Origin: a virus
Reading direction: 5' to 3' (one strand)
Length of the DNA: 64,000 nt
IMG/VR virus record: IMGVR_UViG_3300034073_002480
Span: 1 to 64,000 of that record
Of this stretch, positions 2,925 to 27,881 are shown piece by piece. The notes under the pieces are model-generated. The model was not told the origin of the DNA. It did not search any database and worked only from the letters and a program-made list of their open reading frames with translations. How positions within the stretch are numbered: position 1 is the first letter of the stretch; each line of letters opens with the position of its first letter. Position numbers and translations under genes: made by a program.

Positions 2925-2934
2925 ATACATAGAA

Positions 2935-3720
2935 ATGACTGACAAAGCGCCAAGCAATGGGAAAATAATTGAAGTACAACCACGAGACTCATTACCTAGT
3001 TTTGAAGTCTTCGGCGTACAGTTTAATATACCCACATCATCACTCAACACAGTCCTACTTTTTCTTCTATGTGCGGTGAAAATCAAAGAGATACTAGAAT
3101 CTGGTACTAAAGGTTTGCAACTCGCACTGACAGCACTTGACCGTCTCGACATAACGATTATCGATGCTATGGACGACCTTGCTGTGGAAATCCGTGAAAT
3201 AACCAATGCTGACCGTGTTGTATTCTTTCTGTTACACAATGGTATAGCTAATCCTGTGTATCATTGGAAAAGACTGTCAGCCATGTCAGAGTCTGTTAGA
3301 ATCGGTGTAAAACCTATACTACGGGATATGCGTGACGTTCTTGTACCATCGATCCTCACAGAGAAAGACTACCAACTATACAAAGACTTACAGTGCCATA
3401 AGCAGTTTGTACATTTGCATCTTGAAAACCCTTTGCTGTCACGCAAGCACAAGAACTTCATGTTGGACACAGGTGTGTTCGGTCATTATGTACGTGTATT
3501 GGTCGATGAAGAAACCAACAAACCCTATGGAGCAGTATTAATCCAATACACAACACGAGAACAATGTGAAATCCATGACGGCACAGGATGGTCACAATAT
3601 ACTTATGACACCTTAGAAACAAAACTGGACATACTGTACAACCTATTTGCTAAACGTACTAATACACCAAGATTCCAGTTTATAGCTCGATGCAAAGAGT
3701 TCATGCGCTTTGGTCGTTAA
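2935..3720 (+). CDS. GAF-like domain protein with one membrane segment
   Basis: 261 residues from the ATG at 2935. The frame stays open further upstream, but that part overlaps the small terminase gene and reads as shadow sequence. A hydrophobic segment around residues 38-50 (LNTVLLFLLCAV) may span the membrane. Residues about 78-110 (DRVVFFLLHNG ... RLSAMSESVRIGVKP) resemble the GAF-like fold found in some phage proteins, with its characteristic HNG. It lies between the two terminase genes. Its role is unknown. A sensor or membrane-anchored packaging factor is only a guess. Confidence 0.6.
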   Translation: MTDKAPSNGKIIEVQPRDSLPSFEVFGVQFNIPTSSLNTVLLFLLCAVKIKEILESGTKGLQLALTALDRLDITIIDAMDDLAVEIREITNADRVVFFLLHNGIANPVYHWKRLSAMSESVRIGVKPILRDMRDVLVPSILTEKDYQLYKDLQCHKQFVHLHLENPLLSRKHKNFMLDTGVFGHYVRVLVDEETNKPYGAVLIQYTTREQCEIHDGTGWSQYTYDTLETKLDILYNLFAKRTNTPRFQFIARCKEFMRFGR

Positions 3721-3755
3721 TAGCCACTTTCTTTCTATGGTCTTCATGTACAACT

Positions 3756-5402
3756 ATGGCAAACAATAATATCTCAGCAAGAGCTTTACAAGATTACGAA
3801 GCTTTGATGCAAGAACGTATCTATGAAGCTGCGGAGAAGTCCCTATATGTTTTTATCAAGGCTGCTTGGCAGTACATTAATGGTGAAGAACTTATTGATA
3901 ACTGGCACGTTGCTTGTTTAGCCGAACATATGCAGGAGTTTTTTAAAAAGAAAGACTGTGCATTAGGCAATCGGATGTTAATCAACATATGCCCTAGATC
4001 TGGCAAAACCATGAACACTACTGTGATGGGTACAGCATGGCAGTGGATACAAGATCCTAACTATCGTATTATACACACAACACACACAGAACGGCTCTAC
4101 GTAAGGAACATAGCCTCTATACGCCAGTTATTGTCATCCCCTTGGTACAAAGATAGATGGTGCAATCCTGCATTAACAAACCACTACAGATTCTCACTGT
4201 CACAATCACAAAACACAAAAACTTGGTTACAACTTGAACAAGGTGGTGAATTTTACGGTACATCTCCAGGTTCTAGTAACGTATACGGTGCTGGTGGTGA
4301 TTTACTCTCTATTGATGACCCTACAGATGGTTCGTCTGCACATCAACCTATTGTCCTCGAACGTGCTAATCGTTTTTACTCACAAACATTGAAAACTCGT
4401 CTTAACAACAAAAAGACTGGTAAAATCATGGTTGTGCAACAAAGACTAGCTCAGAACGATCTATCAGGTTGGATACTAGAGCATGAGCGTGAAGATTATT
4501 TCCACCTTAATATCCCGATGCTGTATGACTCTCGTAGAACATTTGTGTCACCTATTGGTTTCAATGACCATAGAAGAAAAGACGGTGAGTCATTAGACCC
4601 ATTGCGTTTCCCACCAGAGTTTATTGATACAGAAAAGAAGAATTTCAGTTATTTTCAAACTCAGTACCAACAAGATCCAGTACCTGAAGGTGGCAACTTA
4701 ATACAACTTGATTGGTTACAATATTACAATAGACACGACTTCGATTCCACTTTCTCTTCTACGGTATCTCAATGGCTTTCAGTCTGGGACTTATCATTCG
4801 ATGGTGGTACTGATAATGATTACACTGTAGGTTTGGTGTTAGCATATACAACTGACGGCAAATTTGTAGTGTATGACCTCTGGCGAGAAAAAGCAACATT
4901 CACTAGACAATTGCAAATGATGCGTGAACTGGTAAACAAACACCCTCAAGTATGCTTGCACCTAGTAGAGAACCTTGCTAACGGTACAGCGTTGATAAAT
5001 ACCCTACAACGTGAAATCAACGGTTTAACACCTATTCTCCCACGTACATACGGTCATTCCAAGTCTATGCGTTTACAGGCTTGTGTACCAGCTATCATGG
5101 AAGGTCGATTGTGGATACCACGTGACACCACCTATAGTGTGGATGTTGTCAAGGAACTTGTAGGCTTTCCTTTAGCAACTAATGATGACATTGTGGACTG
5201 TATTGCTTATGCTATTAATCATTGTTTAGTAACACAAGATATAGGTGTGACATACACAGGGTTGCACAAGATGGTAGACACACCTTTAAATGCTGAAGAA
5301 AAAGCCAGAGCATTATCTACCCTAGCTTATGATTATCAAAAAGAGCGTGTTGATGTATTAGGTTCCACTAGCAACAGTAATATCCGATCCATCTTCTATT
5401 GA
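3756..5402 (+). CDS. terL: Terminase large subunit
   Basis: The packaging ATPase-nuclease, 548 residues from the ATG at 3756. An upstream in-frame ATG at 3690 would add 22 residues, overlap the previous gene and carry a signal-like stretch, so I prefer 3756. The Walker A loop is ICPRSGKT (about residues 78-85) and a Walker B-like strand is LLSIDDPTDG. The C-terminal RNase H-like nuclease shows aspartates in VWDLSFDGGTDNDYTVG, a glutamate in HLVENLANG and aspartates in TNDDIVDCIAYAI. A dispersed-motif copy lies at 3726, just before the start. The 3' end overlaps the convergent endonuclease gene by 45 bp. Confidence 0.95.
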   Translation: MANNNISARALQDYEALMQERIYEAAEKSLYVFIKAAWQYINGEELIDNWHVACLAEHMQEFFKKKDCALGNRMLINICPRSGKTMNTTVMGTAWQWIQDPNYRIIHTTHTERLYVRNIASIRQLLSSPWYKDRWCNPALTNHYRFSLSQSQNTKTWLQLEQGGEFYGTSPGSSNVYGAGGDLLSIDDPTDGSSAHQPIVLERANRFYSQTLKTRLNNKKTGKIMVVQQRLAQNDLSGWILEHEREDYFHLNIPMLYDSRRTFVSPIGFNDHRRKDGESLDPLRFPPEFIDTEKKNFSYFQTQYQQDPVPEGGNLIQLDWLQYYNRHDFDSTFSSTVSQWLSVWDLSFDGGTDNDYTVGLVLAYTTDGKFVVYDLWREKATFTRQLQMMRELVNKHPQVCLHLVENLANGTALINTLQREINGLTPILPRTYGHSKSMRLQACVPAIMEGRLWIPRDTTYSVDVVKELVGFPLATNDDIVDCIAYAINHCLVTQDIGVTYTGLHKMVDTPLNAEEKARALSTLAYDYQKERVDVLGSTSNSNIRSIFY

Positions 5403-6119
5403 CCACCAATACTTCTGTTCAGCAGCAAGTCTAGCCTCCAATGCCTCCTCATAGGTTTCATACTGACCAAGGTAAATCCGCTCTTTATTATTATAAATTT
5501 CAGCATAGAACTTTCCTGATCGTCTTGTATGAACACCTTTGCCAGACATTTTGATGTGCATACTATTTGTAAAGTTTTTCACCATCTCTTCTGAGGCTTT
5601 CTTACCTCTACGAGTAGCACTCCTTTTTTCAATAGATTCTGGACTCTTCTTTACACCTTTACGGCTTTCGGACATTTTCTTTTTACTCTCCTCAGACATC
5701 TTTTGCCCCTTCCTTGAGAATTGTTTCATGTGTTCTCTGAACTGAGGATTAAGCCATTTTGCTCTAACACCTTGAGATATTCTCAACCTAATCTCGTCTG
5801 TTGTTTCAGTGTTATTGGCAACTTTTTTCATGTTATATACATTTTCTCTCCATTCTTCATCACTGATAGCATCAAACAATTCCTGTTCTTTACTTATTAA
5901 AAACTCCCTAGTCACTTCAGCAGTGAACTCTTCTAGAATCTCAAAAGTAAACACATTAAAGCCATATTTATTATAAGATGCTTGAAGATATAAATTCTTG
6001 TGTTCATTCCTCCTTAGCTTATTTTTGTGACTGTTCCATCTCTTTACTATATTCCTACTAGAACCAATATAGTACTTACCGTTGACAGTGTTGGTAATCT
6101 TGTACAAACCTATAGTCAT
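5358..6119 (-). CDS. GIY-YIG homing endonuclease with NUMOD3 and AP2-like parts
   Basis: 253 residues. The N-terminal nuclease domain has GLYKITN and YYIGSS, spaced as in GIY-YIG enzymes, followed by the expected arginine and histidine (RWNSHKNKLR). The middle (about 130-200) has repeated SRKG / MSEESKKKMSESRKG segments typical of NUMOD3 DNA-binding modules. The C-terminal 50 residues (SGKFYAEIYNNKERIYLGQY, then EEALEAR) look like an AP2-type DNA-binding unit. It opposes the large terminase and overlaps its end. The start overlaps the stop of a tiny upstream gene (TAATG). Confidence 0.9.
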   Translation of the reverse strand: MTIGLYKITNTVNGKYYIGSSRNIVKRWNSHKNKLRRNEHKNLYLQASYNKYGFNVFTFEILEEFTAEVTREFLISKEQELFDAISDEEWRENVYNMKKVANNTETTDEIRLRISQGVRAKWLNPQFREHMKQFSRKGQKMSEESKKKMSESRKGVKKSPESIEKRSATRRGKKASEEMVKNFTNSMHIKMSGKGVHTRRSGKFYAEIYNNKERIYLGQYETYEEALEARLAAEQKYWWSIEDGSDITVASGT

Positions 6120-6369: not shown

Positions 6370-6687
6370 CTATGCAGCTTCAACAACAGGTAATTGCTTT
6401 ACAGCTTTCTTTAAAGAAGGCACGGCGCGAAAGCGCACACGGTGAGTAGCAGGTACAGCAATAGCATCCCCAGTCTTGAGATTACGAGCAGTAGTTGCCT
6501 TGAAAAGCCGAGGTGTGAGTAATCCAACACCGTCGATACGAACCTCATCACCATTGCTAAGCTCATTAGCCATAACGTTGGAATAAGAACGTACAACAGC
6601 ATTGATTTTATCCAATGACATAGCAATTCCGAAATCAGCTTCAAGTGCTGCTTGTGTGGTACGGATAATCTGTTTCTTAGTAGACAT
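6370..6687 (-). CDS. HU/IHF-family DNA-bending protein
   Basis: 105 residues. The N-terminal helical half is followed by GDEVRIDGVGLLTPRLF and ARNLKTGDAIAVPATHRVRFRA, matching the HU/IHF beta-arm region (usual form ARNPKTGE). The C-terminal helix PSLKKAVK is also typical. Length fits the family (about 90-105). It has its own promoter and terminator. HU-type proteins bend and compact DNA. Here it may act in genome organisation, replication or packaging. Confidence 0.9.
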   Translation of the reverse strand: MSTKKQIIRTTQAALEADFGIAMSLDKINAVVRSYSNVMANELSNGDEVRIDGVGLLTPRLFKATTARNLKTGDAIAVPATHRVRFRAVPSLKKAVKQLPVVEAA

Positions 6688-6800: not shown

Positions 6801-7880
6801 CTAATCCTCAACTGGTTTAAACTTTTTGCTGGAAACCCTATCATAAGTACGGTAAGCTTTATTACGATCTTTAGCTGTTGCTTTAGGATTCATAAGTTGT
6901 TGTGATAAACCGTCCATAGCTAGATTACGTCTTGCTATATTAGCTTTACCAGCTTTGATGTTTGCTTTCTGTTGATCTGTCAGCTTTTTGAAAGACTCAG
7001 CACTTAAATCTGTTATTCTGGCGATAGGTGACTTTTCATTTAAAGAAGAATCTGGTTTAGGATTGAACGGTAGAAAACGTCTTGATTTAGTTGTATCGAG
7101 ATCTGATGGTTTAGTATTATCAAAACGAGTTGTGTTCAAGGCTTCATAATTACGAAAACCTTTCTTTTTGAGATCTTGTATATCTCTTGCTTTTTCAAGA
7201 GGTGCTATTCCAGTTCTGATACCTTGGATTTCTATAGCATTACCCTGTCTATTAATAGCAATTTTTTTAGCTTTCTCAGTAAACTTATCTTGAGCATCAC
7301 CAAGAGCTTTTATTGTTTTGTTGTAGCGTTTAGTGCCAGCTACTAGTTTGAGAGGTTTGTAGCCAAAATCTGATGAAGAATTGTAAGAATAAGCTGAACT
7401 TACATCTAAACCAGTCAGATCTAGTTTTCTCTTAGTTCTAGGCTTCTTAATGTTTGGTTCAACATCATTAGTACCTTTCTTATTGCGTAGTGGAGGTTTT
7501 ACAGAACCTAGCCTAGTCTTGTCAGTCGTTAAATACTTTCTTCCTGATCCTGGAGTTGTTTCACCACGTCTTGCAATCTGAATAGCATCAATATACTCTC
7601 TGTTAGGATATAAATCCTTAATATCCTGTTTATAAGAATCAATCCTCTCACGAACCATTTTAGTTGTACTAGGATCAAGTTCTTTACGCCAAAAACCGCT
7701 AGGGTTTAAAGCACGTTCCTGATCTCTGATACGAGACTCAAATAGTTTTCTTTTTTCGTCCAATTTAGGTGGTAATTTAACATCAGTTATTTTCTTACCT
7801 AAACCACCTAATAATTCTGCTTGTTTTGTACGTGTTAACATACGTCTGGCTGCATTGGAAAAATCTGCAAGTATATACAT
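6801..7880 (-). CDS. Basic hypothetical protein with MYILADF N-terminus
   Basis: 359 residues from the ATG at 7880. An upstream ATG at 7913 is possible but less likely, because the MYILADF start matches other genes here. It is lysine- and arginine-rich throughout, with no membrane segment, and I know no family for it. The N-terminus (MYILADFSNAARRMLTR) is close to that of the 24356-24985 protein (MYILADFGKINLK). That suggests a shared targeting peptide on proteins that enter the virion, which is an inference. It is divergent from the head morphogenesis gene. Confidence 0.7.
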   Translation of the reverse strand: MYILADFSNAARRMLTRTKQAELLGGLGKKITDVKLPPKLDEKRKLFESRIRDQERALNPSGFWRKELDPSTTKMVRERIDSYKQDIKDLYPNREYIDAIQIARRGETTPGSGRKYLTTDKTRLGSVKPPLRNKKGTNDVEPNIKKPRTKRKLDLTGLDVSSAYSYNSSSDFGYKPLKLVAGTKRYNKTIKALGDAQDKFTEKAKKIAINRQGNAIEIQGIRTGIAPLEKARDIQDLKKKGFRNYEALNTTRFDNTKPSDLDTTKSRRFLPFNPKPDSSLNEKSPIARITDLSAESFKKLTDQQKANIKAGKANIARRNLAMDGLSQQLMNPKATAKDRNKAYRTYDRVSSKKFKPVED

Positions 7881-7926
7881 AGACCTTTTATTTTTATTAT
7901 AACCCGAAAACAACTATAATATAAGA

Positions 7927-10371
7927 ATGATAACAAATATTCTTGACCAGTCGTTTGCTGACTTTGCAAAGCAAGCCAAGACCGTACTATCGTCAGATGA
8001 AGAAAAAGCTGTTGTGTCCCCACAAAGACAACGGTTGGACACACTCGCTTCATATTATACTAACCGTGTATCAGCCAATGAAACACAACTAATAACCAAG
8101 TACGCCGATTCTCTAGTCTCTGGTGGTCAACCACGATTACCTGATCCTCGTTTGTATATGCGTAGGGATTTGTTGGGTTTGGTGCAAGACTCCTATGCAT
8201 TAGGTATTGCTGATGCTTTGCAAGATTTGGAGGATGTCCAGTTCTTTGCTTTGCAAACTGATGCGGATTTTGCTGTATCACCTGATGATAAATTACAACG
8301 TGACATCGCAAAGCTGCAACGTGATATCCAAGCCTCACAGCAAATCGTAAGACAAGCCAAGACACTCAACCAATACACAAATACACTACAAAGCTTACAA
8401 CAACAAGCTCAAGCCCTAAACAACACGCAAGCTGCACAAACATTAAACCAGCTATCAGAACAGCTTGATGCAATCAAAACTAATAACACATTACGTTCTG
8501 TAGGTAAACTAGTCAATCAACAAATACAAAAAGGGCAATCTCAACAATCACAAGCACAAGCTACAGTAAAGCAACAGATAGCTGCCCAAGGATCACCAAA
8601 CACACAAGATTACTTAGTCAAAAGAGCCATAGAAGAGAAGTTACAGTACTTGGAGAACAGACGTGATTCTCTGGCATCAACACCCCCTGTAGTATTAGAC
8701 GAGGACAAGGATTTCTTTAGGTGGTATGCTGACAAGAGATTAGTACCTATTGCTAACAGATATCAGCAGGGTTTGGTGGACAAGAATAATGAAGCTAAAG
8801 AGATTGTAACAAAATATACGGAAGAAATCAACAAAGGAACAACAACACAAGCAGCTAAAGGTACAGCAACAGATAAGATTGTCCGTAAAATGCTAAACAT
8901 AGAAGATAAAGTGATAGCTAAAGGACGACCTATCAAAAGAGTGCAACGTGTTGTAGCTACAGAACTTGCTATTGCTTACAACATAGGTAGGCTCAAAGCA
9001 TACCTCAAAGCTGGCATACAATATGTAACTATATCAACATCTAATTATAGCCCTGAAGTTTGCGACTATTGTGAAACAACAGCAAAACAGACAGAAGGTG
9101 AGCCTATTAAAATATCATCTTTATTAAAAAATGCTTACAAAAATAAAGGTTTCAACAAAGATATAAAACCTATAATATCAGATTTACGATATTTACCTAA
9201 TCACCCTCATTGTTATTGTTTTTACAAACCACATCCTAAACAAGATCCAGAAGACAAACAGGAGTCAGCAGGTGTTTATGCCGACCCTAATAGTTGGAAG
9301 TTCATTCTTGGTGCGGGGTTAGGTGTGTCTTTAGCTTTTCTTGCTTTTGCTTTGACAACAGGACGTAAAATATCTGTACCACGTACCGTGCCATCAGCTT
9401 TACCTGTTCGTGTACCAAAAGCTATACCACAGGTAGTCAGTGATATACAACCTCAATCTATACCTGTACGTGCTATTCCACAATCTGATTTAGTAAGTCT
9501 ACCTGTACTACGGCAATATATAAAAAACTTATCATCTGAACAACAACAAGATTTTGCTGACATCATAACCTCTTCTTCTATGTCTCAACAAGAGAAAATA
9601 GCTGCTCTGTATACAGAAGCTGCTGCAAAAGGTTTAAACATAGAAGAAAAAATTGGAGATATAGTTGATACGATAGCACAACAAATACCACTAGTAAAAG
9701 GTGTACAACGGCAATTTTTACAAGATCAGGTTGCCAAAATAGATAATACTTTTGCAATAAAAAGCAAACTTTTGCTAAACAATATTGACAAACAAGAACA
9801 AAGGTTGTTGTCTATTATCCCTGATAATCCTGATAAAGTCACTATCACATCTATCCGCAACGTCCTGCGTGAAACTGATCGCAAATACATACAAAATCAA
9901 CTTGCATCTATACAAAAAGTAGAGGATTTGTTGTTACAATCATACAAAAAAACACTAGGAAAAACAAAACCTAACGATATAGAGTATCGTAATGAACTAT
10001 CGGAAAACATCAATAAGTTACAAGTTTACCGACAAAATTTGCTAGAACAGCAGCAAAGAGTGAAAAGCATCCAACAACAGTTAGCGGGATTAAAACCCCT
10101 CAACAAAACACAATTACGTGCGCTGGTATCTGATCGTATAGCTCGTGTTGAAGCTGCGTTGGACAGGGATACACAAGAGGCTTCACGGTTGTATAATTCG
10201 TTATTGGAATTTCTTGTTAGTCTACCACCAGAAGAAGCTAACCGTTATGCTGCGGTTGTACGTCGTTTGCGTGACAAAATAGAACCCACACAGTACAAAC
10301 GATATACAGGTGGATTGGTTGCTTTTTCTTCTATGAATCCAAAGTATACATCAACGAAAAGCTTCTTGTGA
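7927..10371 (+). CDS. Head morphogenesis protein (Mu F / SPP1 gp7-like) with long C-terminal extension
   Basis: 814 residues. The region around 330-440 (ATELAIAYNIGRLKAYLKAGI ... VCDYCE ... LPNHPHCYCFYKPH) carries the two CxxC-like pairs and the HPHC of the Mu gpF / SPP1 gp7 minor head family. A hydrophobic segment near residue 460 (ILGAGLGVSLAFLAFAL) follows, then about 330 residues of glutamine-rich predicted coiled coil. Family members are usually much shorter, so the membrane-like segment plus coiled coil is an unusual extension, perhaps for DNA delivery. A TATAAT lies only 7 bp before the ATG, so the message may be nearly leaderless. Confidence 0.85.
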   Translation: MITNILDQSFADFAKQAKTVLSSDEEKAVVSPQRQRLDTLASYYTNRVSANETQLITKYADSLVSGGQPRLPDPRLYMRRDLLGLVQDSYALGIADALQDLEDVQFFALQTDADFAVSPDDKLQRDIAKLQRDIQASQQIVRQAKTLNQYTNTLQSLQQQAQALNNTQAAQTLNQLSEQLDAIKTNNTLRSVGKLVNQQIQKGQSQQSQAQATVKQQIAAQGSPNTQDYLVKRAIEEKLQYLENRRDSLASTPPVVLDEDKDFFRWYADKRLVPIANRYQQGLVDKNNEAKEIVTKYTEEINKGTTTQAAKGTATDKIVRKMLNIEDKVIAKGRPIKRVQRVVATELAIAYNIGRLKAYLKAGIQYVTISTSNYSPEVCDYCETTAKQTEGEPIKISSLLKNAYKNKGFNKDIKPIISDLRYLPNHPHCYCFYKPHPKQDPEDKQESAGVYADPNSWKFILGAGLGVSLAFLAFALTTGRKISVPRTVPSALPVRVPKAIPQVVSDIQPQSIPVRAIPQSDLVSLPVLRQYIKNLSSEQQQDFADIITSSSMSQQEKIAALYTEAAAKGLNIEEKIGDIVDTIAQQIPLVKGVQRQFLQDQVAKIDNTFAIKSKLLLNNIDKQEQRLLSIIPDNPDKVTITSIRNVLRETDRKYIQNQLASIQKVEDLLLQSYKKTLGKTKPNDIEYRNELSENINKLQVYRQNLLEQQQRVKSIQQQLAGLKPLNKTQLRALVSDRIARVEAALDRDTQEASRLYNSLLEFLVSLPPEEANRYAAVVRRLRDKIEPTQYKRYTGGLVAFSSMNPKYTSTKSFL

Positions 10372-12570
10372 ACCACCATTAATAACACGTCTAATTCTAT
10401 CCCAGTTTTCACGAGCAAAATACCCTTCAAACCCATGACCAGCTAATATATCTGTAGCTGTTTTTTTATTAGGTCTTTCTGTGATTATAGTGTTAATATT
10501 TTCTTTATTACCACGTGACAATACAGAGTTAGCTAACATATCATCTCTATTGATAAACGTAACTGTATCAACCACACGAGTGTCTTCTATCTTTGTGATA
10601 CCTGTATAAGGTACACCAAAACTCACAGCACGAGCTTTACTGACATTGCGTAATTTCGATAAGTCAGAAGCTGCTGCTACTGTAGCTACACCACCTGCGG
10701 AGTACCCAACCATAACTTTATTAGCGTTAGGTCGTATTTTTTCTATAGCACGTTGGTAAGCTGCAATTTCGATAGAATCTTTGTTGTAACCTTTTGTGAA
10801 AGGATTAATAGCGAATTTCTCCCACCAGTCTTTTAGTGTCTGTTTTAAAGGATTTTTACTTGTTAACCCTGTTGAGTCAAGCTCTAAGTTATCGAGGTCT
10901 AAAATAGCCCATTTGTCATCACGTTGTTGCATTTTTGACAAGTAATCATTTTTAATCAATGTACCACCCTTGCCATTCATGTTGATACCACCTTTGACGG
11001 TTATCACAGTGTCAGCATCACCTATAGCTGTACGTAGTGTCTGCCCTCGAAATAACTTACGTCCTGTGACAAGATCATCAGCCATCTCTTCAATCATACG
11101 TGCGCGTTTGGGGAGATTCGCGTCCCAATTTGAGCGTGCTAAAGTCGTCAAACCAGAGTCAATACCTTGCACCAAGAACTTACCACCTATAGCTGTGACT
11201 GTGACACCACCAACAACTAACGCCCCAGTTGCTAATTTCTGTGCGGTATCAGAACCAACGCCTTTTTCTTCTATGTTACCAGCGATGTCTGTGCGTAATT
11301 TTTGTACTAGATTTTGGTTTTCCAAAGCTTTATCACGTTTAGCTGTATATGCACGTACAAGTTTACCATTACGAATATAGGACTTTACTTTCACCTCTTG
11401 CTCAGGTGCTGCGAACTCTGCCATAGAAGGAAAAAGTCTGTGGTAGTTAGCCCAAGCTTGTTGCTCTAACCGACTATACTGTGCTTGTCTCTTTTGTTGA
11501 CGTATATATGGGTTACGAGCTATATTCTGTTGATAATCAACTTGGTAATTTTGTGGTTGGAATGGTGTTTTGTCTTGTCTGTTTCTATATATGATCTGGT
11601 CAACTTTAGATCTTGTTTCAGGATGTGATAAATACATACCGTATTCATGTTGTTTAGCCCATTCAGTTTCACCTTGGTAGGGGTCTTTTACCCACTTAAC
11701 TTTTTGCTTACCACGATCAATAACTATAGCATCTTTTTTTGACCTTAAAGGTATCCAAGCTGTCCCAGCGTCAGACTTATCCATGATAGATACGTATTTA
11801 GATCTAGGTGCAGCTAAATCCCATGTTGGCGACCCTAAACCAAAACCTTGTATATCTTTTAATCCCAAAGTATCTCCTATTTCTTGTGCTTCTTTTACAG
11901 CCATACCACCACCTGATGCTGTTACAAAAGTAATAGGTTTATCTGTTCTTTTTCTTACACTAGCCGCAAGTCCAGCTAATTCTTCAGCAGTTTTATTACC
12001 TTGAGTTGCATTACGCCACAACAAAGGTGGAACTCTTGCATATCGTTTTACTAGATCAGATTCCCATCCAAGATCGTTGTACAAATTTTCAACAGATAAT
12101 ACAAGATGGTTAGGATAATCTTTTTTAAGATATTCATGTATACCTAAAGTATGTTGCCCTTTTACACCAGCAAACCCACCTGTAGCTATAATTACACCCT
12201 CATATTGACTGAAATCATCAGGTAATTTTTGAGGATTAGCTTTAGATAAAAAACGAAGATCGGGAATATCTGGTTGTGTCAGTATCCGTGTTGCTGCGTT
12301 ACGTACCTGTGTTTGGTGTCGATTAATTACAAAAGCACGAGTACCAGCAGCTAAACCAACCAACCCTAAACCAGCAACTGCAACATTGAAAGGTACGTTA
12401 GCACCAGTTTTAATACTATTGACTAACGCATTATCTACAGCAGGGTTTTTACTTTGCTCACCTTCTCTTCTATGTTGTCTAACAGTTACTAACTTACCTT
12501 TTTGTAATCTTTGGTAAGTTTTTACCTCTTCTTTTTCAGTAAAACTAGCAAGTTCATTTGCAAATATCAT
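10351..12570 (-). CDS. Double lipase-like (alpha/beta hydrolase) membrane protein
   Basis: 739 residues made of two similar units. Unit 1 (1-385) has a tag VKTYQRLQKGKLVTV (16-30), a hydrophobic segment (62-78) and a hydrolase-like domain with TASGGGMA (Ser219), aspartates at 264/267 and His308 (KQHEYGMYL). Unit 2 (385-739) repeats the plan: VKSYIRNGKLVRAY (395-408), a hydrophobic segment (446-463), GYSAGGVA (Ser624), RDD (676-677) and AGHGFEGYF (His712). Each unit therefore has a possible Ser-Asp-His triad in lipase order. The gene overlaps the upstream paralogue by ATGA and converges on the head gene. The substrate is unknown. A phospholipase or esterase role is an inference. Confidence 0.65.
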   Translation of the reverse strand: MIFANELASFTEKEEVKTYQRLQKGKLVTVRQHRREGEQSKNPAVDNALVNSIKTGANVPFNVAVAGLGLVGLAAGTRAFVINRHQTQVRNAATRILTQPDIPDLRFLSKANPQKLPDDFSQYEGVIIATGGFAGVKGQHTLGIHEYLKKDYPNHLVLSVENLYNDLGWESDLVKRYARVPPLLWRNATQGNKTAEELAGLAASVRKRTDKPITFVTASGGGMAVKEAQEIGDTLGLKDIQGFGLGSPTWDLAAPRSKYVSIMDKSDAGTAWIPLRSKKDAIVIDRGKQKVKWVKDPYQGETEWAKQHEYGMYLSHPETRSKVDQIIYRNRQDKTPFQPQNYQVDYQQNIARNPYIRQQKRQAQYSRLEQQAWANYHRLFPSMAEFAAPEQEVKVKSYIRNGKLVRAYTAKRDKALENQNLVQKLRTDIAGNIEEKGVGSDTAQKLATGALVVGGVTVTAIGGKFLVQGIDSGLTTLARSNWDANLPKRARMIEEMADDLVTGRKLFRGQTLRTAIGDADTVITVKGGINMNGKGGTLIKNDYLSKMQQRDDKWAILDLDNLELDSTGLTSKNPLKQTLKDWWEKFAINPFTKGYNKDSIEIAAYQRAIEKIRPNANKVMVGYSAGGVATVAAASDLSKLRNVSKARAVSFGVPYTGITKIEDTRVVDTVTFINRDDMLANSVLSRGNKENINTIITERPNKKTATDILAGHGFEGYFARENWDRIRRVINGGSQEAFR

Positions 12571-13550
12571 CTGTTAATTACCTTATCTAATATTTTAATT
12601 ACTTCTGGATTTCTGAGGTAAGATCTATGATTATGTTCCATAGCTTTTATTTTTAATCTTTCTGTAATTGATAAACCATATACCCTACTAGTATCAAATG
12701 TACCACGAACACGTACAATATCTTTTTTGTTGACAGCAGGGGTTAGTTGAAATAAATCATTACCTGACATTACAGATATATAAGGTGACTTAGGTTGTGC
12801 TAATGCAAAAGTAGGACTACCAAGACCTATACCAGATATATTTTTTACATTTAGCTTATCCGTTATCTCTTGTGCATTTTTAATAGCCATCCCACCACCA
12901 CTTGTTGCTATAAATGTTATAGGTTTATCTGTTTGTTTACGTATATTATAAGCTACTTCAGCAAGATCTTCTGCTGTCTTATTCCCATTTATAGCTGACT
13001 TAAATAATAGATCTGGTGTAGCTTTAGCTCTTTGCAAAAAGTCTGTACTAGCCGTATCAAATTCTTTATTCTCTACAGATAATACTAATGATTTACGATA
13101 TTTACGTGCAAGATTAGCTCGGAGATCATTTGCACTATGCCCTAAAGCACCTGTAAAACCACCAGTAGTGATTACTATATTATCGTACTTATTAAAATCA
13201 GTAATAGTTGATGGGTTATATTTAGAGTACTTTTTAAAATCTGTTATTGGCGAAGCTTTTTCTATACGTGCAGCTGCTTTGTTTATATTCTGTGCATATT
13301 TAGTTTGTATTACTTGTTTTGTAGCAGCAGATATACCAACCAATGATAAACCAGCTAGAGCTAAAGTACCACCTACTATTGCACCTGTATTAACTTTATT
13401 TCTAAGGTCTTTATCTTGCTGTTCATTTAATTGTTCTTTTCTACCACCATCTCTTGCATGTTGTTTGACAGTGATCAAACGACCTTTAGATAACCTTGTA
13501 TAAGATTTTACTTTTTCATTTTTTTGGAAGTCAACTAATAGATATATCAT
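12567..13550 (-). CDS. Lipase-like (alpha/beta hydrolase) membrane protein, paralogue
   Basis: 327 residues, a close relative of unit 1 of the downstream gene. Its parts are the N-terminal peptide MIYLLVDF, tag VKSYTRLSKGRLITVKQH (14-31), hydrophobic segment (57-76), and a Rossmann-like core with VITTGGFTG (126-134). Further on are the nucleophile motif ATSGGGMA (Ser217), GSPTF, Asp265 in SGNDLFQL and a histidine pair in EHNHRSYL (306/308). GNKTAEDLAEVAYNIRKQTD is nearly identical to the paralogue. It overlaps both the XRE gene upstream and its paralogue downstream by ATGA, so all three form one operon. Confidence 0.65.
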   Translation of the reverse strand: MIYLLVDFQKNEKVKSYTRLSKGRLITVKQHARDGGRKEQLNEQQDKDLRNKVNTGAIVGGTLALAGLSLVGISAATKQVIQTKYAQNINKAAARIEKASPITDFKKYSKYNPSTITDFNKYDNIVITTGGFTGALGHSANDLRANLARKYRKSLVLSVENKEFDTASTDFLQRAKATPDLLFKSAINGNKTAEDLAEVAYNIRKQTDKPITFIATSGGGMAIKNAQEITDKLNVKNISGIGLGSPTFALAQPKSPYISVMSGNDLFQLTPAVNKKDIVRVRGTFDTSRVYGLSITERLKIKAMEHNHRSYLRNPEVIKILDKVINR

Positions 13551-13771
13551 AGATCACTAAAAAAATAAATTACTGGTTTCTTATACACTTGTGCAAAGCT
13601 GACAACATCTTCAACAGATATTTGTCGTTTATCAAGCTCTGACATAGAAACAAAGTCAGTAGCTCTATGTAATGCAGCAGCTACATCTTTTTGTTTAAGA
13701 TCTAAATCTTCTCTTGTTTCTCGTAGTTTTTGTGCTACTTTAGCGTTAACAGAGTATTTGGGGGACACCAT
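13547..13771 (-). CDS. XRE-family helix-turn-helix regulator
   Basis: 74 residues. VAQKLRETREDLDLKQKDVAAALHRATDFVSMSEL fits a Cro/C1-type helix-turn-helix, although the recognition helix region is slightly unusual. RQISVEDVVSFAQVYKKPVIYFF is the typical following segment of XRE proteins with short C-termini. It is the first gene of the operon with the two lipase-like genes and is divergent from the protease gene, so it probably represses its own operon. The C-terminus ends FFSDL. Confidence 0.8.
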   Translation of the reverse strand: MVSPKYSVNAKVAQKLRETREDLDLKQKDVAAALHRATDFVSMSELDKRQISVEDVVSFAQVYKKPVIYFFSDL

Positions 13772-13853: not shown

Positions 13854-14807
13854 ATGAATAAACAAAAATCTACCACTACATATTTTGCAGGTAAGTCAGC
13901 CTCATTGCTGTCTACCTTTACACAAGATTCTAGTGGTTGTATTACTAAAGATGCTATCCTTATGCTAGAAGGTACATTACCAGATTCTAAAGGTGTGGTA
14001 CATACTTTTACAGCAGATAGATTAGCACAAATTGCTGACAATACAAATGCAGCATTGCAAGAAGGTGTTAAACTTCCTGTTCTTTTAGAACATGAAAAAA
14101 CAGCTTTGGCAACTGTAGGTAATGCTAACAATGCAGAACTATATGTAAAAACAGTAACAGAAGAAGATATTGCAAAGATTAATCCAAAAGCAACTAAATT
14201 ACTAGGCAAGGCAGCACTATTTGTACGTAATCTAGTTATTCAAACACCTGAAGTTGTTTCTAAAGTACTGGAAGGTACAGCTAGTTCTGTTTCTATGGGT
14301 TTGGATCTTTTAACTGATTCTCTTAAGGAAATCTCTTTAGTAGGTATCCCTGCTTGGGAACACGCCACTCTATATGCTAAACATACGCAGAAAGATGCTA
14401 AATTCTCTGCGTTGACATGGGATGAAGATGGTGAACAAGAGGATACCTTAGAAGAAAAAGAAGAAGAATACGAAAAGCTTACTGAACAACTCTGGGGTTA
14501 TCTTCGCAACATCTATACTGCTGATGAAGCTGAACTGAAAGGTAAAGATCCATCACAATTAGTAGACGTTACTTTATATGGTTTTGTTGAACGTGTGAAA
14601 AAATTGCTAGACCTTGATGGTTTAGGTGCTGATTCTGATGTTGTTGCACAACAAGCACAAGCACAAGGCGTTGGAATGCCAACATATAAAGCTAGTAAGT
14701 ACAGAGCAGCTAACTTTGCATTTGCGAATATGTTGAATAAAAAGCTTATAGTAAAACCAACTGGTCGTGCTGTAAAAACAAAATACTCTGTGAGAGGTAA
14801 GAAATAA
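13854..14807 (+). CDS. Prohead maturation protease (Mu gpI-like)
   Basis: 317 residues from the ATG at 13854. An in-frame ATG at 13758 would run back into the divergent promoter region. Residues about 33-175 carry the capsid protease pattern: LLEHEKTA (His80), then ASSVSMGLD (Ser147) and LKEISLVGIPAWEHATLY (158-174), the typical strand after the serine in Mu I-type and related capsid proteases. The C-terminal acidic then basic region (KKLIVKPTGRAVKTKY) may act as scaffold or be trimmed. It heads the capsid gene row. Confidence 0.85.
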   Translation: MNKQKSTTTYFAGKSASLLSTFTQDSSGCITKDAILMLEGTLPDSKGVVHTFTADRLAQIADNTNAALQEGVKLPVLLEHEKTALATVGNANNAELYVKTVTEEDIAKINPKATKLLGKAALFVRNLVIQTPEVVSKVLEGTASSVSMGLDLLTDSLKEISLVGIPAWEHATLYAKHTQKDAKFSALTWDEDGEQEDTLEEKEEEYEKLTEQLWGYLRNIYTADEAELKGKDPSQLVDVTLYGFVERVKKLLDLDGLGADSDVVAQQAQAQGVGMPTYKASKYRAANFAFANMLNKKLIVKPTGRAVKTKYSVRGKK

Positions 14808-15671: not shown

Positions 15672-16478
15672 ATGTATAATATTGAACCAGGCAACAAATA
15701 CGGAGAAGCGTTATTAGCGTTGATCCAAGATGAATATGAAACAGTTGATGATGGTTTGTTTACTATCGCATCTGTTCTGCAAGAAGAAGGTTATGAGGTT
15801 ACTGACGAAGATATCGTAGCTATCATTGAAGACGGTTCTATTGAAGATCTAGAGCAAGAAACTTTTGATCTTATCTCATCTGTTTTTGACCAAACACAAG
15901 ATGAAGATGTTTACAATGGTTTGTTAGCTACTGCTATGGACGCTAGTGGTTTGTTAGACCTTGATGCAGAACTCAGCGATGAGGATAATGACATTCAAGA
16001 AGAATATGAGACTGTAGAAGAAAATGCTCCTGTAGGTGCTTATTCTGCATCTCGTGGTCGTACCGCATCTTTCTCTGCTCCAGATCCCCGTGTAGCAGAA
16101 CTCGAAGCTCGTCTTGCAACTGTTGAAACTTTCAGCGTTGTTAAAGATCGGTTGGCGAACATCAATGCTAAGGCTGAGTTTGGTGTTCAAGAAGGTTGGT
16201 TGCCTCCTGTAGCTAAACAAGCTCTTGTTGCTAATTTCAACCGTGAAGAAGATATGGTTGCTTCTTTTTCTATGTTAGCTGACAAAAATGGTGTTGACCT
16301 CGATACTCAACTACACGCTATGGAATTTGCATTGGAACTATTCAAGCGTTGTGGTAATCTCGTGGATTTCAACCAATACGTCAACGAAGATATTGATCCT
16401 GAAGAAGAAGCTCGTTTCTCTGCTATTGATGCAGCCGCTAAGCGTTCTTTGCAAGCCATTGGTTTATTTAATAAGTAA
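15672..16478 (+). CDS. Capsid scaffold-like acidic protein
   Basis: 268 residues, very acidic in the first 120 (EDGSIEDLEQETFDLIS, SDEDNDIQEEYETVEE), with a probable coiled coil at about 138-160 (APDPRVAELEARLATVETF). Position between protease and capsid protein, acidity and helical content fit a scaffolding protein. TASFSAPD, ARFSAID and ASFSML may be protease sites. A Shine-Dalgarno AGAGG precedes the ATG. Confidence 0.7.
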   Translation: MYNIEPGNKYGEALLALIQDEYETVDDGLFTIASVLQEEGYEVTDEDIVAIIEDGSIEDLEQETFDLISSVFDQTQDEDVYNGLLATAMDASGLLDLDAELSDEDNDIQEEYETVEENAPVGAYSASRGRTASFSAPDPRVAELEARLATVETFSVVKDRLANINAKAEFGVQEGWLPPVAKQALVANFNREEDMVASFSMLADKNGVDLDTQLHAMEFALELFKRCGNLVDFNQYVNEDIDPEEEARFSAIDAAAKRSLQAIGLFNK

Positions 16479-17385: not shown

Positions 17386-18519
17386 ATGGCTTATATTGCC
17401 ACTTGGTTAAATGAAGAATTACAAAGTCGTCAAGCTGACATGGTTGTTGACGAAACTTTGTGGGAGTTGCAACAACGATCCAAATGGTTGGATCAGTTCG
17501 TAGAAACAAAGATGTATGACAATCGTAACTTCTTGGCTTATATCACCAAGCAGATCAATACGATGGCATCTGTCGTAGCTCCTAACGGTGCTATTCCTTC
17601 TACTCGTAAGGGTCAATTCCGTAAGATCACCGCCGAATCCTTCAAAGTTGGTCTTCGTCACGATTATGATGAAGAAGATCAATGGGAACTACGTGATGCT
17701 ATTGCTCTTGCAGAAGCTCGTGGTATTACTGTTCAAAATATGATGGGTGCTGACGGTAAGGTTATTGAAGGTAGCAACAATAGCTTAGCTGCTTTGTTGT
17801 TCGGTAACTTAAGCGGTCTTGTACGTTCTGTCGGTGAACTCTTGGAGTACATGACTTGGCAAGTTATTCAGTTTGGTGCGGTGAATTATACTGACCCTCG
17901 TACTGGTATGACTGTTGATCTCGATTGGAAAGATCCTTCGTTGGTAACTGCTGGCGATCATTTCCCTTCCGCAACTGTTGATATCCCTTGGACTGCCGCT
18001 AACCGTGCAACCGCTAACGGTATTCAGGATTTGTACAATGACATCAACTTGTATTACGACACCAACGGTATGGCTCCCGACGCTATCGTTATGTCTCGTA
18101 AGCTATGGCAAGAGCTTTTGCAACAAAAGTCTACTAAGGAAGCGGCTTCTAGCTTATTTCTAGATGGTGGTACTGCTTTGCAAGGTGTTGTTGCTCCTGA
18201 ACGTTTACAAGCTGTTTTGGAAACACGTGGTATCCCCAAAGTACACACTTTCGATGAACGTACTGAAATGGATGTAACTCCAGGCACTAGTGGTGGTAAT
18301 ATTCGCTTCTTGAATGCAGATAGATACTGCTTTATTAAGAAGGGTAAGATTATCAAGGCTATGGGTGGAGTAATTGAGCAGCAAGGTCGTAGTGGAATTT
18401 ACCAACGTACTTATCAAGATCCTCTTGTACAGACAAAGGATGTGAGTGAAGTGATTGCCAGACTGCTACCAGTTTCGGTCGAGTGTTCAAAATGGGGACT
18501 CAGCCGCCGCGTCCTGTAA
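17386..18519 (+). CDS. Major capsid protein
   Basis: 377 residues. The strongest Shine-Dalgarno of the region (AAAGGAGA) precedes it. The start MAYIATWLNEELQSRQAD, the region around 75-105 (TRKGQFRKITAESFKVGLRHDYDEEDQWELR) and the LETRGIPKVHTFDE segment (about 280) are typical of HK97-fold capsid proteins of the GpE-like type. It lies after protease, scaffold and decoration genes. The length fits the family. No AxF motif was seen at the N-terminus, so it may not be trimmed. Confidence 0.85.
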   Translation: MAYIATWLNEELQSRQADMVVDETLWELQQRSKWLDQFVETKMYDNRNFLAYITKQINTMASVVAPNGAIPSTRKGQFRKITAESFKVGLRHDYDEEDQWELRDAIALAEARGITVQNMMGADGKVIEGSNNSLAALLFGNLSGLVRSVGELLEYMTWQVIQFGAVNYTDPRTGMTVDLDWKDPSLVTAGDHFPSATVDIPWTAANRATANGIQDLYNDINLYYDTNGMAPDAIVMSRKLWQELLQQKSTKEAASSLFLDGGTALQGVVAPERLQAVLETRGIPKVHTFDERTEMDVTPGTSGGNIRFLNADRYCFIKKGKIIKAMGGVIEQQGRSGIYQRTYQDPLVQTKDVSEVIARLLPVSVECSKWGLSRRVL

Positions 18520-22909: not shown

Positions 22910-24006
22910 AAAACCTAGTGCCTAGACCAGCACAATTAAGTCGTGACGGCAAAAGATTAGTCAGAGATTGGATGGGTTCTGATGGTAAGTCATTTCGCTT
23001 ACCACTAAACACAAATAAGAATGCTAAATCATCTATAGTTGACATCTATGGTGAAGCATTTACATCTGTTGTTGGTAAGAACCCAACAATGAAAGTTGAT
23101 GACTACGGCAAATCTATAAGACCTTACAACAGTAAAGTCGAGCCAGCAACAACTAAATCCAATTTATTTCGTAGCATAGGTCGTTGGAAACCTGACCTTG
23201 ACTCAGATAAACCTCTAGATGTATCTGGTCTAGCCTCTATTTCTGTAAGCGCTGATCGTAAGAAGGTTATTGATGCTTTTACTAAAGGTAAAATAAGCAA
23301 AGAAGAGTATGAAGATAGATTGAAAAAGTTAGGAAGATCACCAGCTATTGTAAGTGTTAAAAACAGTAAAGGTGAGCATATTTACGCAAAAAATGTTAAG
23401 TACAGTGCTGACTCTAAAAAAGGTGGTTTGTATCTACCGCAGTCACCCGATGAGCCTCGACAAGTTATAGCTACATTAAAAGGTAAAAAGAAAACTAACA
23501 TTGACCCTGACTCCCAAGAACCAGCAGGATATATTAAAACAGCAAAAGGACGTAAACCTGTGTATGAAACTCTAGGTATTGGCTTCTCTTATAACCCTTT
23601 TCTTCTATGTGACTTCATTGCACAAGCAACCTTTGATGCTGGTCATCCGCAACACATTAGTATTCCCAAAGAAAAATGGGTTGTCATACCAAGTAAACTA
23701 CGCCGCCAAATCCGTACCATAGAAAGAAAAGGTAAGGGTGATCTAGAGGGCATTTATGACCAAGCACGTCACTATGTAGATTTTGCTGGCGAAGCCAAAA
23801 AGAAAAACCCTAAAAAATGGGCGGCAACTGTTGCCTCTGTAAAAGCACAAGATGTCGGTGGTACACCTGCTGGTAAATGGTCAGCTGTAAAAGCATCGAT
23901 AGCTGTGCGTAAGTACAAAGCTAGTGGTGGTAAATATAAAACAAAAGAACGTGGTGCGCTAAGCAACGCTAATTGGTTTCAACAACAAAAGGTTAACAAA
24001 AAATGA
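22906..24006 (+). CDS. Basic hypothetical structural protein, 366 aa
   Basis: A lysine-rich protein, with an AGGAGA Shine-Dalgarno before the ATG. An internal peptide NPFLLCDFIAQATFDAG (about 233-249) matches the terminal LLCDL peptides of neighbours. The C-terminal 60 residues (KKNPKKWAATVASVKAQ, then GKWSAVKASIAVRKYKASGGKYK) are a distinct basic block. No family is known to me. ATGA overlap with the next gene. Confidence 0.65.
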   Translation: MKNLVPRPAQLSRDGKRLVRDWMGSDGKSFRLPLNTNKNAKSSIVDIYGEAFTSVVGKNPTMKVDDYGKSIRPYNSKVEPATTKSNLFRSIGRWKPDLDSDKPLDVSGLASISVSADRKKVIDAFTKGKISKEEYEDRLKKLGRSPAIVSVKNSKGEHIYAKNVKYSADSKKGGLYLPQSPDEPRQVIATLKGKKKTNIDPDSQEPAGYIKTAKGRKPVYETLGIGFSYNPFLLCDFIAQATFDAGHPQHISIPKEKWVVIPSKLRRQIRTIERKGKGDLEGIYDQARHYVDFAGEAKKKNPKKWAATVASVKAQDVGGTPAGKWSAVKASIAVRKYKASGGKYKTKERGALSNANWFQQQKVNKK

Positions 24007-24356
24007 TTTCTCTTCTGTGTGACTTGGCTTTGTTTGCCGAAATAGCCAGTGTAGATAAGTTAAATACAACACGTGCCAAAACTGTTAAGTACAATGGCTC
24101 CAAGTACAAAATCAGTGAACCGTCTCGTTCTGCAAGAAAAGGTAAGAAATACCAAGTGACTGTAGAAAGAAGTGATGGCAAAAAGAAAACTGTAGCTTGG
24201 GGTGACTCTAGCCGAGAAGATTATCTTATACACAAAGATAAGAAACGCCGTGATAATTTTCAGAAACGATTTGGTGGGATAAAGAAAAAAGATGGCTCTT
24301 TAGCTAAGAATGATCCTATGTCACCAGCTTTTTACGCGACCCGTTATAATTGGTGA
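24003..24356 (+). CDS. DUF5754-like small basic protein
   Basis: 117 residues. After MISLLCDLALFAEIAS comes a block KKYQVTVERSDGKKKTVAWGDSSREDYLIHKDKKRRDNFQKRF and an aromatic end FYATRYNW. It matches the plan I remember for DUF5754-type proteins (a K/R strand, then FGxxxxxDYxxHxDxxRRxxYxxRH, then W). The match is from memory. The N-terminal LLCDL peptide is encoded by a degenerate motif copy. Confidence 0.55.
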   Translation: MISLLCDLALFAEIASVDKLNTTRAKTVKYNGSKYKISEPSRSARKGKKYQVTVERSDGKKKTVAWGDSSREDYLIHKDKKRRDNFQKRFGGIKKKDGSLAKNDPMSPAFYATRYNW

Positions 24357-24985
24357 TGACTATGTATATACTGGCTGATTTTGGTAAAATCAACTTAAAG
24401 AATTTGCAAAAACTACAAAAGTTAGATGTTGAAAATTCTAAAAAAGTTTTTATAAGTAGATCTAAAGTTCCTAGTAAACATCCTATGTTTACTGATGAAA
24501 TGATGAGTCTCCATGATGGACTTACACATACTAAAGTAAAACCTTCTTTAATGAAATATCTCCCACAAGTCAATTACAAAAATACTCCGAGAGATTTTTT
24601 ACATTTGAATCCAGATTACACTGACAAAAATAATAAGAAATTCAATAATGCAATAGAATCAATAGCTGTTGGTATTGAAGGTAAAGGTAGGAAGAGTGGA
24701 AATTCTTTAGTTATATTAGGCAACTCTATCCGAAAAAGAGATTTGAATGATGTTGAAAAATTGGCAACATCTTGGCAACAAGTTCCAGAGATAGTGGCAG
24801 TTAAAAATAAATCAACACCTGCAACTGAAGATGATGTAAGTCTTTTAATAAAAGCATTTAAAGATAATAGATCAAGATATACAAATAAAGATAGAGGTGT
24901 TAGAAAAATAAAAGGATTAAAAGCGCCAGAAAGAGATTTAGAATATAAAAAAGCTATTCTACAAGGTAGGTATATATCAGATTAA
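24356..24985 (+). CDS. Hypothetical protein with MYILADF N-terminus
   Basis: 209 residues from the ATG at 24356, which overlaps the upstream stop (TGATG). The ATG at 24362 would give exactly MYILADFGKINLKNLQK. It is a lysine-rich alpha/beta protein with the same N-terminal peptide as the 6801-7880 protein. The base composition is slightly more AT-rich than its neighbours. No family recognised. Confidence 0.6.
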   Translation: MTMYILADFGKINLKNLQKLQKLDVENSKKVFISRSKVPSKHPMFTDEMMSLHDGLTHTKVKPSLMKYLPQVNYKNTPRDFLHLNPDYTDKNNKKFNNAIESIAVGIEGKGRKSGNSLVILGNSIRKRDLNDVEKLATSWQQVPEIVAVKNKSTPATEDDVSLLIKAFKDNRSRYTNKDRGVRKIKGLKAPERDLEYKKAILQGRYISD

Positions 24986-27068: not shown

Positions 27069-27881
27069 ATGTTGATTAAAAATGGGCAGTTAAAAATAAA
27101 AACGATCAACGGGAAAATTGTTGCCAAACCTGATCTTAAAACAGCGATAGGTTCTGGTGCAACACGTAAATACGCTGTAGCAAAAAAAGGTGTAAGATAT
27201 AGAAAGATATATAAAACAAATCAATCACGTTATATGCTTTTATTAGAAGATATAGCTGACTTCAATAAATCAGCGACCATAGAAAAAAAACAAAAGATAG
27301 ATGTTAAAGATGCTGCTCTAACAGGTGCTACAACAGGTATTGGTGGTGGCTTGGGATCAGGTTTTCTAATTGGTGAATATTTAGCTCGTAATAAGAATAA
27401 AGCTGCTAAAACTAAGTATGGTGTTGGTGGTGCTATTGCAGGTACTGTGGGACTTGGAACTTTGGGCGCTTATCAATCAGCAAGACAACAAAAGAAAGCA
27501 CTGAAAAGCAATAATTCTTCTTCTACAGTCTTAGCTTCGTTTAGTAGTAGCGGTGAAACCAAAAAGAAAAAGAAGATAGTCAAACCTTACACACGAGAAG
27601 GTCGTCAGGTACGTGGTTATACAGTAGATAGTGATGGCAAGAAGCGATATCTGACACCAGAAGAAATGCACTATGAAAAGAATCAGAGAGCAAAAGAAGA
27701 GTTGCAATACAAACAGCGAAGACTAGATCAAGCTAAGGCACGTGAAGAAAGACTGCAACGTGAAGATAAACGTCGTCCAGTAGAAGATGTACGCAAGAAC
27801 GTATCTGCTGCTGTCAACGTATCACGTGAAGCAAAAGGTTGGATAAATACAGGTCACAAAATATTCGGATGGTTCAAATAA
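27069..27881 (+). CDS. Basic membrane protein with shared VKxY tag
   Basis: 270 residues. The first 60 are basic beta-like (ING KIVAKP). The segment MLLLEDIADFNKSA (about 56-69) resembles the peptide at other gene starts. Two glycine-rich hydrophobic spans follow (AALTGATTGIGGGLGSGFLIG and VGGAIAGTVGLGTLGAY). Then come an ASFSSSGE motif, a KKKKKIVKPYTREGRQVRGYT tag like those of the lipase-like proteins, and a charged coiled coil. It is probably a virion protein able to insert in membranes. The function is unknown. Confidence 0.65.
   Translation: MLIKNGQLKIKTINGKIVAKPDLKTAIGSGATRKYAVAKKGVRYRKIYKTNQSRYMLLLEDIADFNKSATIEKKQKIDVKDAALTGATTGIGGGLGSGFLIGEYLARNKNKAAKTKYGVGGAIAGTVGLGTLGAYQSARQQKKALKSNNSSSTVLASFSSSGETKKKKKIVKPYTREGRQVRGYTVDSDGKKRYLTPEEMHYEKNQRAKEELQYKQRRLDQAKAREERLQREDKRRPVEDVRKNVSAAVNVSREAKGWINTGHKIFGWFK

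Follow-up and report, generated by a model that had tools for sequence, protein, structure and literature searches.

A cassette of three minus-strand genes lies within the head gene cluster of the virus recorded as IMGVR_UViG_3300034073_002480. The sequence analysed, hereafter the window, comprises 64,000 nt (positions 1-64,000) of the 138,722-bp record. The cassette encodes an XRE regulator, a stand-alone unit (A) and a fused polypeptide with two further units (B+C, or BC), with a 4-bp overlap at each junction, and is placed between the plus-strand genes of a MuF-like minor head protein and a prohead protease (Table 1). Genes for TerL, a scaffold-like protein and the major capsid protein (MCP), together with a decoration-like gene, also surround the cassette, and the minor head gene converges on BC with a 21-bp overlap. 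A sequence-only reading of this region had described antisense units within a head gene cluster and an XRE gene heading their operon; the flanking genes and the overlap of the XRE gene with unit A confirmed both points.

The window TerL was found to be nearest to those of the Pseudanabaena phages Pam2 and PA-SR01 (~31% identity), which makes a cyanobacterial host likely, and the prohead protease shares 32% identity with a Mu-I-like protein of PA-SR01. The minor head protein is weakly similar to Pam2_10/SR01 by BLASTP and was not matched by PF04233 in a Pfam scan; its assignment as MuF-like rests partly on inspection by eye of a TE..AYN.G..C..C pattern. The scaffold role of the gene at 15672..16478 was inferred from its place before the MCP gene. 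Gene calls for the window virus and the L010 virus (a relative described below) are longest-ORF picks, made without a trained gene finder. A promoter scan of the XRE-protease interval, with one site found and 3.1 expected, was uninformative. Three GIY-YIG homing-endonuclease-like genes are present within the structural module (5358-6119, minus strand; 18634-20217 and 50603-51736, plus strand). An HU-like gene lies antisense in the interval between TerL and the minor head gene both in the window (6370-6687, minus strand) and in a second lineage (L040:3784-4134, minus strand), and an HU gene is also present near the portal gene of Aphanizomenon phage vB_AphaS-CL131 (CL131).

Table 1. Features of the cassette and of the structural module in the window (a slash within a motif marks the putative cleavage point).
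Feature	Position	Strand	Evidence
Antisense gene, leader MYILADFSN	6801..7880	-
MuF-like minor head protein, with hydrophobic segment and long C-terminus	7927..10371	+	BLASTP 2.7e-11 to L040 homologue (tiny set)
Fused B+C polypeptide, 739 aa	10351..12570	-
Unit C, residues 379-739: tag VKSYIRNGKLVRAYTAKR, hydrophobic segment, hydrolase, GYSAGG nucleophile	10351..11436	-
Putative prohead-protease site at B/C boundary, MAEF/AAPE	11401..11424	-	motif enrichment in structural proteins
Unit B, residues 1-378: leader MIFANELASF, tag, hydrophobic segment, hydrolase, TASGGG nucleophile	11437..12570	-
Unit A, stand-alone tagged membrane-linked alpha/beta hydrolase (predicted), 327 aa; S217, D265, H306	12567..13550	-	model and triad alignment
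Unit A hydrophobic segment, residues 56-76, mean KD 1.78	13323..13385	-
Unit A tag VKSYTRLSKGRLITVKQHAR, beta hairpin in model (strands 14-21 and 24-31)	13452..13511	-
XRE/HTH regulator, 74 aa, first gene of antisense operon; TGA overlaps unit A ATG	13547..13771	-
Prohead (head maturation) protease	about 13854..14807	+	phrog_976 3.6e-7
Scaffold-like protein	15672..16478	+	putative sites TASF/SA, KAEF/GV, VASF/SM, ARF/SA
Major capsid protein	17386..18519	+	phrog_29, 2.1e-19
DUF5754 small basic protein, leader MISLLCDLALFAE	24003..24356	+	DUF5754 4.6e-11
Basic protein, leader MYILADFGK	24362..24985	+
Tag VKPYTREGRQVRGYTVDS on non-hydrolase structural-module protein g27069 (27069-27881), after LASF/SSSGE	27579..27632	+

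Architecture and predicted fold of the three units

Units A, B and C follow one plan, in which a VK-x-Y-x-R tag and a hydrophobic segment (mean KD 1.59-1.78) are followed by Ser, Asp and His in lipase order. Pairwise BLAST, in a very small set, revealed 42% identity between A and B over 327 aa (E 2.5e-78) and 26.5% between C and A over 200 aa (E 5e-4). Unit C gave a profile-profile match with E 3e-5 over 308 columns, yet with an hhalign probability of 73.5%, and matched unit L30a at 8e-11 by BLASTP within a very small set of 21 sequences. By these comparisons, C is a more distant member of the unit family than A and B. The division of two overlapping genes into three units of this plan is as the sequence-only reading had proposed.

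The AlphaFold model of unit A (pLDDT 79.2, pTM 0.79) consists of a tag hairpin, hydrophobic helices and an alpha/beta hydrolase domain. A VIA structure search with this model returned 2o2g as the top match (Z 12.0), and many hydrolases exceeded Z 10; dienelactone hydrolase, acyl-protein thioesterase, phospholipase A1, lipases and cutinases were matched at Z of about 10.6-12.0. In the predicted structure, unit A has the alpha/beta hydrolase fold, with the core sheet, the nucleophile elbow and the Ser-Asp-His order, which bears out the earlier assignment to the lipase type. The model of unit C (pLDDT 34.5) was unusable, so that the fold of this unit rests on homology.

The fold, nucleophile elbow and triad order of the units are those of the Lipase_3, Cutinase, DUF676 and dienelactone hydrolase families; the window units themselves pass no Pfam cut-off. 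For Lipase_3 (PF01764), unit C of BC scored 17.1 bits, below the cut-off of 22, and unit A gave no match, whereas a related 276-aa unit of L010, with a canonical GHSLGG motif, reached 28.3 bits. Nothing scored above the cut-offs of NCBIfam, PADLOC left the hydrolase unmatched, and a PDB sequence search with query A2 gave one chance match only.

Ser217, Asp265 and His306 (unit A numbering) were aligned in 20 of the 21 family members collected, the sole exception being a CL131 unit that lacks the Ser. A hydrophobic segment is carried by the stand-alone units (KD 1.24-2.09), at 131-177 residues from the nucleophile, and is missing from the L010 276-aa unit, the degenerate CL131 unit and units fused to tape measure proteins. 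The dN/dS of BC against L010 (0.20) indicates purifying selection. This value, the retention of the cassette in three independent contigs, and the modelled hydrolase fold of unit A together place the units beyond chance.

Near and distant relatives

Close relatives retain BC at the equivalent position, namely L009, L010 (65% amino acid identity) and L011, the last with ~96% DNA identity to the window. Unit A is missing from L009 and L010, and L010 carries two other units, of 342 aa (2290-3318) and 276 aa (3311-4141); the number of units is thus variable. In Pam2 and PA-SR01, the interval from the MuF-like gene to the protease gene holds an antisense XRE homologue, which shares 38% identity with that of the window (24.4 bits for HTH_31, just under the cut-off of 27) and is not accompanied by a hydrolase; two other genes separate it from the protease in Pam2. 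The Pam2 record (ON014754.1; L028, L043) also holds several CDS with implausible automatic product names (neurotoxin, neurexin and the like), which are likely misannotated.

A different arrangement was found in L040, L041 and L042, where a hydrolase of 384-395 aa is encoded in sense in the equivalent slot, with an 11-bp overlap with the minor head gene, and carries a tag of the same type as in the window (VKGFFRKGKFVRAFNR). The L040 module comprises TerL, the antisense HU gene, the minor head gene, the protease, a small motif-bearing protein, a scaffold-like protein and MCP (phrog_29, 1.6e-34). In L040 and L041, an antisense XRE-like gene stands alone, with no hydrolase behind it. Judged by gene order, the conserved feature is the slot adjoining the minor head gene rather than the pairing with XRE. 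Because XRE occurs without a hydrolase behind it in Pam2, PA-SR01 and L040, constant XRE-effector pairing fails, and a toxin-antitoxin interpretation was rejected.

The same comparison bears on whether the cassette might be an XRE-controlled operon made in the infected cell and never packaged, acting in superinfection exclusion, membrane remodelling or as a late lysis aid. An antisense position within a structural module is a usual one for accessory genes, and the window-clade hydrolases, which overlap XRE by 4 bp and run antisense to structural genes, fit such a position. However, XRE is retained without hydrolases in Pam2 and PA-SR01, and the L040 hydrolase belongs to a sense operon and is not downstream of XRE, which weakens the superinfection-exclusion option of the sequence-only reading. 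Hydrolase fusions to MuF and tape measure proteins, and a leader and tag common to structural-module proteins (see below), argue further against expression confined to the infected cell, which we consider unlikely.

Other relatives were found in fusion with virion proteins. L035 encodes a 1650-aa protein in which Phage_Mu_F (PF04233; 39.0 bits, cut-off 29.6) is followed by a hydrophobic segment, a GYSAGG hydrolase and a long, probably coiled-coil region. In L031, a contig of a Pleurocapsa MAG, a tape measure protein (TMP_3, 47.5 bits, cut-off 41) carries two hydrolases in fusion. CL131 (MG209611) encodes four hydrolase units in gp047 (330 aa) and gp048 (1811 aa), both annotated as hypothetical. 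As in BC, homologous tag, hydrophobic segment and hydrolase units are repeated in one polypeptide of the structural module; unlike BC, these genes are in sense, directly precede the tape measure gene, and bear a Cys-rich tag (CK-G-CGD-CIPK-C) in place of VKxYxR. This Cys tag is also present on the neighbouring gp044 and gp045. The gp048 protein passes the cut-offs of DUF676, Lipase_3 and DUF900. LC-MS/MS of CL131 virions identified 23 proteins (PMC6293099). The last unit of gp048 (L029:42705-48140) has AHGYGG in place of the Ser motif and is probably inactive. In the CL131-related contig L030, one unit of an array (6948-11579) shows a J-domain-like stretch by eye, suggesting exchangeable cargo, and a 1562-aa protein (L038:7173-11861) has two hydrolase-like sites (GFSGGG, GHSLGG).

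Searching phage records by tblastn gave no match for BC at E 0.01 and only CL131 for unit A (3e-4), after the fold search had pointed to CL131. The first scan of bacterial genomes yielded no relative, and the second a single Pleurocapsa MAG contig. Within the literature collection searched, no paper was found that describes a lipase domain as part of a MuF or tape measure protein.

The degenerate CL131 unit and the non-hydrolase cargo with a Cys tag in CL131 and L030 would be expected if the hydrolase fold were purely structural, so that minor proteins of the head or tail used it as a scaffold or for binding and it catalysed little. Such a role is very improbable given that 20 of 21 units, though strongly diverged in other respects, retain Ser, Asp and His.

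Leaders, tags and a putative protease site

Many structural-module proteins of the window virus and the L010 virus open with leaders resembling M-x-[YF]-[IL]-L-x-D-F (Table 1). A leader profile of 13 non-hydrolase members, chosen by eye, was scored by leave-one-out against 432 genes and ranked unit A 8th, the L010 342-aa unit 11th and the L010 276-aa unit 27th; it does not single out BC (140/432) or its L010 orthologue (122/432). Since the members were picked by eye, the ranking is only suggestive of a shared cargo leader. A DNA-level signal in the leader was rejected because the codons differ while the residues are kept. Within the window virus, the tag pattern is confined to the hydrolases and g27069.

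A motif chosen by inspection, A[DNEKSQ]F[AGST], was scored against shuffled sequences. In the window, non-hydrolase structural proteins contain 19 occurrences versus 4.6 expected, a count reached in none of 300 shuffles, and the other proteins of this virus contain 7 versus 5.8. The corresponding counts were 12 versus 4.0 (1/300 shuffles) for structural proteins and 10 versus 5.4 (9/300) elsewhere in the L010 virus, and 14 versus 1.4 (0/500) for head genes and 5 versus 3.4 elsewhere in Pam2. Enrichment was marginal in the L042 head genes (2 versus 0.45; 29/500 shuffles) and not significant in those of L040 (2 versus 0.7; 88/500). The B/C boundary site has counterparts in L010 (DADF/AS) and L009 (TGEF/AA). 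BC also bears the motif at residue 8 (ASF/T), and unit A contains VDF/Q, which lies outside the strict motif. By analogy with the head cargo of T4 and SPN3US, which is cut at a short motif (PMC7411985), we infer that the prohead protease cuts at A-x-F/small and that BC is made as a polyprotein.

Proposed virion delivery and comparison with known systems

The sense-oriented slot in L040-L042, the MuF and tape measure fusions, and the shared leader, tag and site indicate that the hydrolases are probably packaged. That A, B and C are virion-delivered, membrane-anchored enzymes, an option already raised in the sequence-only reading and favoured by the same observations, is the best reading and a reasonably probable one; carriage in the virion, its best-supported step, is quite likely. 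Counting against delivery is the antisense position of the window-clade genes behind XRE, unlike the flanking structural genes.

In the proposed mechanism, three alpha/beta-fold serine hydrolases of the lipase/esterase type would be carried in the virion, each synthesised with a leader and a beta-hairpin tag ahead of its hydrophobic segment and hydrolase. By means of the leader and tag, the unit would enter the prohead or become attached to the MuF/tape-measure apparatus. The prohead protease would probably cut at A-x-F/[AGST], trimming leaders, and may split B from C to give two enzymes; prohead cleavage is slightly favoured overall. At infection, the enzymes would exit the particle with the DNA, use the hydrophobic segment to insert into the host membrane, and cleave lipid (or acyl-thioester) bonds, by which DNA entry would be helped or the host crippled. 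Hydrolysis of lipid or acyl bonds within the host membrane is about as likely as not, and membrane attack, a further role offered by the sequence-only reading, is an inferred one. More tentatively, cyanobacterial phages could share a modular loading system, in which a virus-specific tag (VKxYxR hairpin in one lineage, Cys motif in another) and a membrane helix are combined with cargo that can be exchanged and consists mostly of lipid hydrolases. The units would be encoded in tandem as polyproteins, cut apart by the prohead protease while still in the capsid, and then injected into the host membrane.

To our knowledge, the way in which the DNA of large cyanophages passes through the envelope and past the thylakoid membranes is poorly known. 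If true, a conserved virion-linked family of membrane-anchored hydrolases, whether stand-alone, MuF-fused or tape-measure-fused, would be a concrete entry factor and would provide a function for many hypothetical genes in the structural modules of cyanophages. With the shared leader and the putative A-x-F/small site, sequence would suffice to predict which proteins these phages carry as head cargo.

The same packaging step could serve a different purpose, the enzymes being virion-borne toxins that harm competing bacteria or lysogens rather than aid DNA entry. Secretion systems commonly deploy lipase domains as toxins, and weak Tle3 matches were found. The MuF-hydrolase fusion in L035 also speaks for such a role, and MuF has been proposed, in work on the MuF polymorphic toxins Bxa and Apk2, to be a capsid-targeting domain for toxins (PMC11699363). 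However, no immunity gene was recognised beside the units, which are flanked only by XRE, MuF-like and protease genes; the window virus has no MuF fusion; and a lytic lifestyle is described for PA-SR01, whereas MuF toxins are associated with temperate phages (Jamet 2017, PMC5576092). A toxin role is accordingly held to be rather unlikely.

MuF polymorphic toxins are the closest described kind. Their genes lie in the head morphogenesis region and join an enzyme to a MuF minor head protein, a pattern that L035 matches with a hydrolase, whereas the window enzymes are separate tagged genes with three units and are membrane-linked. PF04233, found in L035, was not found in unit A or BC by Pfam scan, and the window units, which lack a fused MuF domain, fall outside the definition of MuF toxins. 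Neither "lipase" nor "hydrolase" appears in the main text of PMC5576092. The earlier statement that no phage system of this form had been described is thus partly right, with MuF polymorphic toxins standing as a close described kind (PMC5576092, PMC11699363).

A second likeness is to ejected internal head proteins, which include the IPs and Alt of T4 with their capsid targeting sequences, DarB of P1 and the E proteins of SPN3US (PMC7411985, PMC9024508). There, as is proposed here, several cargo proteins have a common short leader, which in T4 and SPN3US is cut at a short motif by the prohead protease. The differences lie in the site, which is AXE in SPN3US and A-x-F/small here, and in the window cargo, which is a membrane-linked hydrolase with putative cleavage.
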